DNA of 64,000 bases from Tropicimonas sp. IMCC34011 (lineage in GTDB: Bacteria > Pseudomonadota > Alphaproteobacteria > Rhodobacterales > Rhodobacteraceae), in contig NZ_QMEJ01000005.1 of assembly GCF_003390865.1 (NCBI RefSeq), positions 310,001 through 374,000 on the forward strand, read 5' to 3'. Below are positions 11,548 to 28,633 of this stretch, one piece after another; within the stretch, counting starts at the first letter, position 1, and the number at the start of each line of letters is the position of its first letter. A program made the position numbers and the translations under genes. The notes under the pieces are model-generated. The model was not told the DNA's origin, searched no databases, and was given only the letters and a program-made list of their open reading frames with translations.

Positions 11548-11742
11548 TGAGCCCTTCTCGGACAGGGCCCGCGCCGCGTCGTGCGGTCGGACCCTGTCCA
11601 AGGCGAGGCTCCCCGAAGGGGTTCGGGCGCGGCCGGTGGGACGGCCGCAGGAATGGAACCCCGCCGCCTTCATTCGTGAGCGGCGCTCGCGTCCGGCCCC
11701 GGGACGCTGGCGATCCGCGACAGACGAAAGGTGTCTTACGGC

Positions 11743-22824: not shown

Positions 22825-24966
<2,142 letters not shown>

Positions 24967-24968
24967 CC

Positions 24969-25036
24969 TGCGGTGGGCGCCAGCGCCCACCCTACACCAC
25001 CCGACGGTTAGGGTGGGCGCCGCGTCGCCCACCGCA
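24969..25036. repeat. REP-like palindromic doublet
   Basis: Two hairpins, GGTGGGCG-CCAG-CGCCCACC and GGTGGGCG-CCGCGT-CGCCCACC, face each other across a short spacer. Together they form one long inverted repeat: the outer TGCGGTGGGCG matches CGCCCACCGCA, and the inner CGCCCACCCTA matches TAGGGTGGGCG. The layout is that of paired REP/BIME elements. No other copy occurs in this window and no REP-associated transposase is present. Confidence 0.75.
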
Positions 25037-25059
25037 TGAGAGACGACAAGGAGGCCGAG

Positions 25060-26235
<1,176 letters not shown>

Positions 26236-26283
26236 TCAAGAGGCGAGGGGCTTCGGGATCATCCCGAACCACACGGTGAATGG

Positions 26284-26313
26284 CAGGGGGGACGGCAATG
26301 CCGGGCCCCCCTG
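26284..26313 (+). promoter_or_regulatory. Large hairpin in the rpsJ (S10) leader
   Basis: CAGGGGGG pairs with CCCCCCTG and encloses a second stem CGGC-AAT-GCCG, giving about 12 paired positions with a small internal loop. It lies 90 bases before rpsJ with no T-tract. Its place matches where E. coli keeps the L4-controlled S10 leader, but the sequence is not recognisably related. Confidence 0.45.
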
Positions 26314-26403
26314 TCCACCACAAGACTAAGACCGCGACGTGGGGGTGGATGAGCCTCCTCCACCTCTCCGGCTCACGGACACGCCTCGAAAGGCAAGACA
26401 AAG

Positions 26404-28522: not shown

Positions 28523-28541
28523 TATCAGGCCCCATCGCAGG

Positions 28542-28573
28542 CGGCCCCGGGCGACCGGGGCCGCTCGCTTTTT
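28542..28573 (+). terminator. Attenuator-like hairpin between rplW and rplB
   Basis: A perfect 9-bp stem CGGCCCCGG/CCGGGGCCG with a GCGA loop is followed, after five bases (CTCGC), by TTTTT. The spacing between stem and T-tract is longer than usual, which suggests partial termination or mRNA stabilisation rather than a full stop, since rplB is expected in the same operon. Confidence 0.5.
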
Positions 28574-28633
28574 CCGACACTGAAGAAGTCCTGCCGGGGT
28601 CTTCCCCGGCAATAGAAACGGAAGACAGAAAGC

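Follow-up and report, generated by a model that had tools for sequence, protein, structure and literature searches.

The gap between fusA and tuf in Tropicimonas sp. IMCC34011 carries a tail-to-tail (TT) inverted dimer of GTAG-tagged REP-like units, with the heads inside, and this dimer probably represents a local control element that has been retained, and not one that jumped in recently. This verdict rests on the finding of no other copy and no mobiliser in the genome, together with the presence of the same build, with different stems, at the same spot in many related genera. The reading that we favor, with confidence a little below even, is that an old GTAG-tagged REP TT dimer has been maintained as an RNA structure close to the fusA stop, where it would limit or insulate the synthesis of EF-G relative to that of EF-Tu.

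All coordinates refer to the + strand of the window, the whole stretch of 64,000 nt that was analysed. In the list of open reading frames, fusA (EF-G) occupies positions 22825 to 24966, with a TGA stop at 24964 to 24966, and the tuf (EF-Tu) frame begins at an upstream in-frame ATG at 25036. We took the start of tuf as 25060 (gene 25060 to 26235), the ATG that follows the ribosome-binding site AAGGAGG read directly at 25048 to 25054. The resulting gap is 93 bases long, and the hairpins start 5 nt past the fusA stop and end 26 nt ahead of tuf. The P1 hairpin (REP-like unit 1; 24972 to 24991) has an 8-bp stem, GGTGGGCG, the loop CCAG and CGCCCACC, and is followed at 24992 to 24995 by the head CTAC, which is GTAG on the − strand and opposes the head of unit 2. 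The 12-base linker between the heads, ACCACCCGACGG (24996 to 25007), contains three G. The head of unit 2, by direct reading, is TTAG (25008 to 25011), a one-base variant of GTAG, and leads into the P2 hairpin (REP-like unit 2; 25012 to 25033), with an 8-bp stem GGTGGGCG, the loop CCGCGT and CGCCCACC. Each palindromic stem therefore adjoins a GTAG-type head, intact (CTAC/GTAG) in unit 1 and variant (TTAG) in unit 2. Both stems are perfect, and the outer closing pairs P0, formed by TGC at 24969 to 24971 and GCA at 25034 to 25036 and supported by the fold and by covariation, enclose 68 bases. The coordinates and layout in the preliminary description, which had reported a 68-base element with two hairpins that alternatively form one long inverted repeat, are confirmed.

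The element is strongly structured. Positions 24960 to 25050 fold with −58 kcal/mol, versus a mean of −33.4 (SD, 3.2) for dinucleotide shuffles, none of 200 of which equalled it (z of −7.62); the fusA-tuf gap folded alone gives a z of −5.31. The sequence can adopt either of two folds, a pair of hairpins or a single long foldback, of which the latter is the minimum free energy (MFE) structure in this genome.

The assembly of the organism comprises 12 contigs and 3.80 Mb and is rated 99.99% complete. The pattern GGTGGGCGN{0,14}CGCCCACC found just these two hairpins across the 3.8 Mb, with 0 matches of its reversed control, and the wider pattern TAGGGTGNGN{4,18}CNCACC added two places in which the arms are unpaired. 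A DNA similarity search of the genome returned the site, its reverse complement and two chance matches (E of 0.25 and 0.88). The sole match of a covariance model of the dimer was the fusA-tuf site, on both strands. The single-unit pattern GTAGGGTGSGN{2,18}CSCACC matched once, at P1, and GTAGGSCGGGN{2,16}CCCGSC gave 0 matches (4 for its reversed control). Since none of these searches gave a second copy, the element is no longer a repeat in its own genome. The several copies per host that mark a GTAG-tagged REP are thus missing there, and so is the RAYT or Y1 transposase that marks a REPtron or REPIN, the profile PF01797 having no match in the genome at an E of ≤0.001.

These results bear on the preliminary description, which regarded the element as REP-like, mobile and moved by a RAYT. 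The first term holds in kind: the heads are of the GTAG type, the stems are palindromic, the units form a TT dimer, and like units are multicopy in several relatives. Mobility is not supported here, given that the genome-wide search for copies of the arm or of the element, which it had suggested, found no further copy, that the RAYT search by PF01797 was negative at the same threshold, that the second head is TTAG and that 23 of the 53 other genomes of the family have a dimer at the same site.

Other signals were sought at the locus. An intrinsic terminator was rejected, as the stem is followed by no T-tract; terminator-like sites on the + strand were absent from 24600 to 25300, where one lies on the − strand within the end of fusA, and TTTT occurs in 1 of 59 dimer gaps at this site. 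A sigma-70 promoter was likewise rejected, none being found in 24600 to 25300. No Rfam family matched the element at its gathering score; at an E of ≤1 there was a mir-1909 match (E of 0.011, 24.4 bits versus a cut-off of 80). Farther upstream, positions 11620 to 11712 match the Rfam Rhodo-rpoB RNA with 47.1 bits. Among the gaps of the operon, rpsG-fusA (28 bases) is unstructured (z of 0.53), and the tuf-rpsJ gap (26236 to 26385) and the rplW-rplB gap (28523 to 28633) are strongly structured (z of −3.41 and −3.69). By eye, the latter, in the ribosomal-protein operon, contains a hairpin of terminator-like form, GGCGGCCCCGGGCGACCGGGGCCGC, and after it a T-run and another strong hairpin.

To place the element among its relatives, EF-G C termini were located by matching in 98 of the 101 genomes, this one included; each family relative belongs to another genus, and none of the 100 relatives shares the genus of the window. 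Gaps were taken from 54 family genomes (this one included, and leaving out 7 of 60 family relatives with no usable EF-G end), from 15 of 40 genomes of other families of the same class, and from the best 80 matches of a longer list of named loci, a nonrandom sample. Most of the named loci are deposited as Rhodobacteraceae or under genera that we take to belong there (for example, Ruegeria, Sulfitobacter, Salipiger, Palleronia and Phaeobacter). A dimer is present in the fusA-tuf gap of 24 of the 54 family genomes, 35 of the best 80 named loci and 0 of the 15 other-family loci. Letter-shuffled gaps gave means of 0.5 of 54, 0.7 of 80 and 0 of 15, and the reversed core gave 2, 2 and 0. Four gaps among the best 80 named loci are identical to gaps in the 54-genome set, which leaves 130 distinct family loci, 57 with a dimer and 73 without. 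With two mismatches allowed in the heads, 26 of the 54 and 44 of the best 80 named would qualify, a looser count that was not used; two of the accepted rows, L135 and L136, have a linker of a single base and are poor dimers. The position of the dimer is tightly constrained: P1 starts 3 to 8 nt past the fusA stop in all 59 dimers, and P2 ends 21 to 31 nt upstream of the tuf ATG in the 58 dimers with a placed start.

The distribution of the dimer is patchy, with a weak inherited signal. On a 106-locus tree of fusA, built from this one gene by a quick method and with 33 of 103 inner branches open, dimer presence requires 28 changes versus 35.6 ± 2.8 when shuffled (7 of 500 shuffles as low). The type of the P1 stem requires 24 changes versus 25.2 (144 of 500 as low) and that of P2 24 versus 27.0 (47 of 500 as low). 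Presence is therefore weakly inherited, and the stems turn over faster than genera part. According to the preliminary description, a hairpin that was single copy and conserved at this site in all relatives would be a local regulatory structure and not a mobile repeat; the first half of that statement applies in this genome and the second does not, the dimer being found at 57 of 130 distinct loci, a set whose named part is the best 80.

Several dimer-free gaps are only 29 to 46 nt long and have little structure, which indicates that the dimer is dispensable. Dimer-free family gaps of 25 to 110 bases are nonetheless mostly structured, with a median z of −2.23 and 33 of 60 below −2; in other families the median is −0.14, with 1 of 12 gaps below −2. 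The MFE structure contains a hairpin of at least 7 bp in 45 of the 60, and 42 of these 45 hairpins begin ≤15 nt after the stop; the corresponding figures for other families are 6 of 14 gaps, 3 of them with the hairpin near the fusA stop. Because dimer-free family gaps stay structured beside the fusA stop, the comparison points to a hairpin close to this stop as the kept feature, of which the REP dimer is one common version. At ten loci of the family, including one identical pair, fusA and tuf are separated by 536 to 788 bases. Of two such gaps that were inspected, one holds a 177-amino-acid ORF with a lipoprotein-like start (L129, 1797 to 2330) and the other a 217-amino-acid ORF that appears sulfotransferase-like by eye (L193, 1822 to 2475).

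Fifty dimers were aligned, the rows being selected for the two stems P1 and P2 and for the CTAC/GTAG core. Changes on both sides were observed in 15 of 25 pairs, and the covariation score was 0.395 versus 0.133 for shuffled and ≤0.072 for slid alignments, values that are conditional on the selection for the pairs of P1, P2 and the core. The P0 pairs lie outside this selection and are formed in 73.5% of cells versus 58.7% when shuffled, with 0 of 500 shuffles as high. Across the 50 dimers, pairing holds in 90.5% of cells for the long foldback and in 94.2% for the two-hairpin structure. The CTAC head is invariant in these rows, themselves chosen for that core, and the pair of the first GTAG base is kept in 49 of 50, the exception being the TTAG row of the window.

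The stems themselves are diverse. The types found at fusA-tuf are GGTGGG, GGTGCG, GGCGGGG and GCCGGG, plus rarer ones, and in 17 of the 59 dimers the two stems are of different types, which shows that the hairpins change independently, each holding its own pairing. Between close relatives, 5 of 308 stem positions differ versus 27 of 266 other positions, in a set of 8 partly nonindependent comparisons that pools dimers and single hairpins; 4 of the 5 stem differences come from one pair that changed on both sides, seen in two comparisons. Such turnover may proceed by template-switch repair inside the palindromes or by replacement with other REP copies.

GTAG-tagged units are dispersed and multicopy in several relatives. 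Counting both strands, GTAGGGTGSGN{2,18}CSCACC matches 192 times in G018, 64 in G053, 59 in G020 and 49 in G050 (reversed controls, 0 or 1), and GTAGGSCGGGN{2,16}CCCGSC matches 70 times in G020, 36 in G044 and 27 in G043 (reversed controls, 1 to 5). The core pattern SCCTACCN{2,12}GTAGGS gave fewer matches than the reversed control in the majority of family genomes, with 0 matches in G000, where the heads differ, and was therefore used solely together with stem checks. PF01797 matched in 6 of 61 family genomes. Among the REP-rich genomes (G018, G020, G053, G050, G031, G005, G034, G043 and G044), only G044 has a match, and by eye the 1.5 kb around its Y1_Tnp gene (L117) holds no GTAG-REP hairpin. 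G018, G020 and G053 are rich in GTAG hairpins with no PF01797 match.

Dimers of the same form are present at other loci of relatives. Of 60 stretches, 58, from 15 mostly REP-rich genomes, were kept, two (L289 and L295) being without a dimer; in four of the 58 (L267, L277, L298 and L299), one arm is not REP-like. Of these dimers, 30 of 58 lie ≤15 nt after the stop of an ORF of at least 100 codons, some of these ORFs being probably spurious. By eye, GTAG-REP hairpins follow the stops of sucC/sucD-like genes at L237 and L238, the latter being a heads-outside dimer. The linker distinguishes the two groups: at fusA-tuf, 55 of 59 dimers have a linker with no G, regardless of stem type, versus 6 of 58 elsewhere with no G or no C (Fisher P of 2e−21), and among linkers of ≤12 bases the counts are 55 of 59 versus 5 of 24 (P of 1e−10), P values that overstate independence, as the dimers share genomes and ancestry. 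The linker in the window, in which three G occur, belongs to the four that depart from the G-free rule. Since linker composition is specific to the site whatever the stem type, this evidence speaks less for new insertions time after time than for a resident element that had its stems exchanged in situ, or for selection that keeps the linker unstructured.

For 10 of the 25 genomes with a listed fusA-tuf match, this was the sole dimer among the matches listed (G000, G002, G009, G015, G025, G026, G040, G041, G045 and G051), in a scan with strict filters and 52 candidates scored per genome, which weaker dimers may escape. The covariance model behind these matches, R1, draws on dimers from many of the same genomes that it was used to search, and the fusA-tuf matches are therefore partly by construction. 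G047 stands outside the 10, its second match lying beyond the matches listed. Single units occur in some sole-match genomes, with 18 of the first pattern in G009. The other dimers of G043 have the same stems, GCCGGGC/GCCCGGC, as its fusA-tuf dimer, an identity that would fit copying between sites. In G034, GGCGGGG and GCCGG at fusA-tuf differ from GGTGCGTG in two dimers elsewhere.

The architecture resembles that of the GTAG-tagged REP TT dimers of Di Nocera et al. 2013 (PMC3733652), which, as described there, have inward GTAG heads and stems of 6 to 9 bp, occur as homo- and heterodimers, may form a single large foldback and are placed after coding regions. Unlike those REPs as they are presented there, the fusA-tuf element has no second copy, no RAYT found, one TTAG head, a site-specific linker and an orthologous site common to many genera. 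The main text of that paper makes no mention of Rhodobacter, Ruegeria, Roseobacter, Dinoroseobacter, Paracoccus or tuf. A GTAG tetranucleotide adjoining a hairpin is also found in the E. coli REP handled by TnpA-REP (RAYT), an enzyme that, as reported in PMC8266576, tolerates no change in GTAG and requires a bulged stem. In contrast, the fusA-tuf element has perfect stems and one TTAG head, with no Y1 transposase found in the genome, and that strictness implies that the TTAG head would be unsuited to an enzyme of this type. The enzyme of S. maltophilia, according to the same paper, binds head mutants and cleaves them poorly. In titles and abstract openings on REP, RAYT, GTAG and fusA-tuf in Rhodobacteraceae or alphaproteobacteria, a coverage outside which most subscription journals lie, the element is undescribed.

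EF-Tu is required in large excess over EF-G, and for this reason we prefer a reading in which EF-G is damped and tuf is initiated separately. A REP dimer would have become resident between fusA and tuf in Rhodobacteraceae and been held for its hairpins, acting, we infer, in the mRNA. P1 lies so near the fusA stop that a ribosome completing EF-G would have to melt it, and this may slow or limit the final step of EF-G synthesis. The hairpins would also stop terminating ribosomes and exonucleases from passing between the cistrons, and through this separation EF-Tu could be translated independently from its own ribosome site. The proposal draws on E. coli, where REPs located <16 nt after a stop lower translation (Liang et al. 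2015, as summarized in PMC12306157). P1 lies within this distance in every dimer found (59 of 59), although the fusA-tuf element is a dimer and belongs to a different bacterial family. An effect on fusA/tuf expression, as the preliminary description had suggested, is plausible. The evidence for the preferred reading comprises the dimers at the same site across the family, their tight distance from the stop, the covariation, the mixed-type stems, the stems kept in close pairs, the G-free linker, the sole-match genomes and the hairpins in dimer-free gaps. Against it stand the stop proximity of dimers elsewhere, the structured tuf-rpsJ and rplW-rplB gaps, the patchy presence and dispensability of the dimer, the stem identity in G043, the foldback as MFE structure and the atypical linker of the window.

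The main rival, somewhat unlikely in our judgment, is that the hairpins stabilize a 3′ end: after cleavage between fusA and tuf they would block 3′-to-5′ exonucleases and shield the str mRNA that lies upstream of them. Such protection would favor fusA over tuf, contrary to the usual excess of EF-Tu, and we know of no cleavage site at fusA-tuf. A simple 3′-end role is possible, and it agrees with the location just past a cistron, the near absence of TTTT from the dimer gaps, the hairpins in other gaps of the operon and the frequent placement of dimers elsewhere after stops. The malE-malF REPs of E. coli are an analogue of exonuclease-blocking hairpins, and an intercistronic stem-loop is present in puf of Rhodobacter capsulatus, a member of the same family as the organism of the window. 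PMC5927463 cites malEFG and puf as cases of differential decay, and there the puf stem-loop (Chen et al. 1988), which the element resembles by description, is an mRNA decay terminator.

It is rather improbable that the dimer is a functionless REP, selfish or dead, that was inserted or copied time and again into a hot spot behind fusA. The little phylogenetic signal in stem types, the multicopy REPs of relatives, the stems that G043 shares between this site and others, and the frequent stop proximity of dimers elsewhere are what such insertion would produce. The G-free linker is specific to the site, alike there whatever the stem type, and speaks against it, as do the stems kept in close pairs, the 10 of 25 genomes in which the matched dimer is the sole one among the matches listed, and the 55 of 61 family genomes with no PF01797 match. 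A still smaller chance is given to an ancestral, selected cis-RNA of Rhodobacteraceae, in which a four-helix junction (P0, P1, CTAC/GTAG and P2) would set the EF-G:EF-Tu ratio, perhaps sensed by EF-Tu as a tRNA-like fold, the dispersed GTAG hairpins having spread without a RAYT. Gyrase binding has been proposed for some E. coli BIMEs, and a double palindrome within a ribosomal-protein and elongation-factor operon could similarly be a site for gyrase or another protein acting on heavily transcribed DNA. BIMEs and REPs do bind several proteins, as stated in PMC2817692. This role is nevertheless very improbable, as the stem sequences vary and the tie of P1 to the fusA stop would be unnecessary for a function in DNA.

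The function of REPs is usually hard to separate from their genome-wide spread. The retained dimer that we favor sits at one and the same orthologous site of an essential operon in many genera and is often the sole dimer found per genome, among the matches listed, and GTAG-type hairpins are multicopy in relatives where the PF01797 search gave no Y1 transposase. A role of a REP dimer for its host would thus be testable at one locus.
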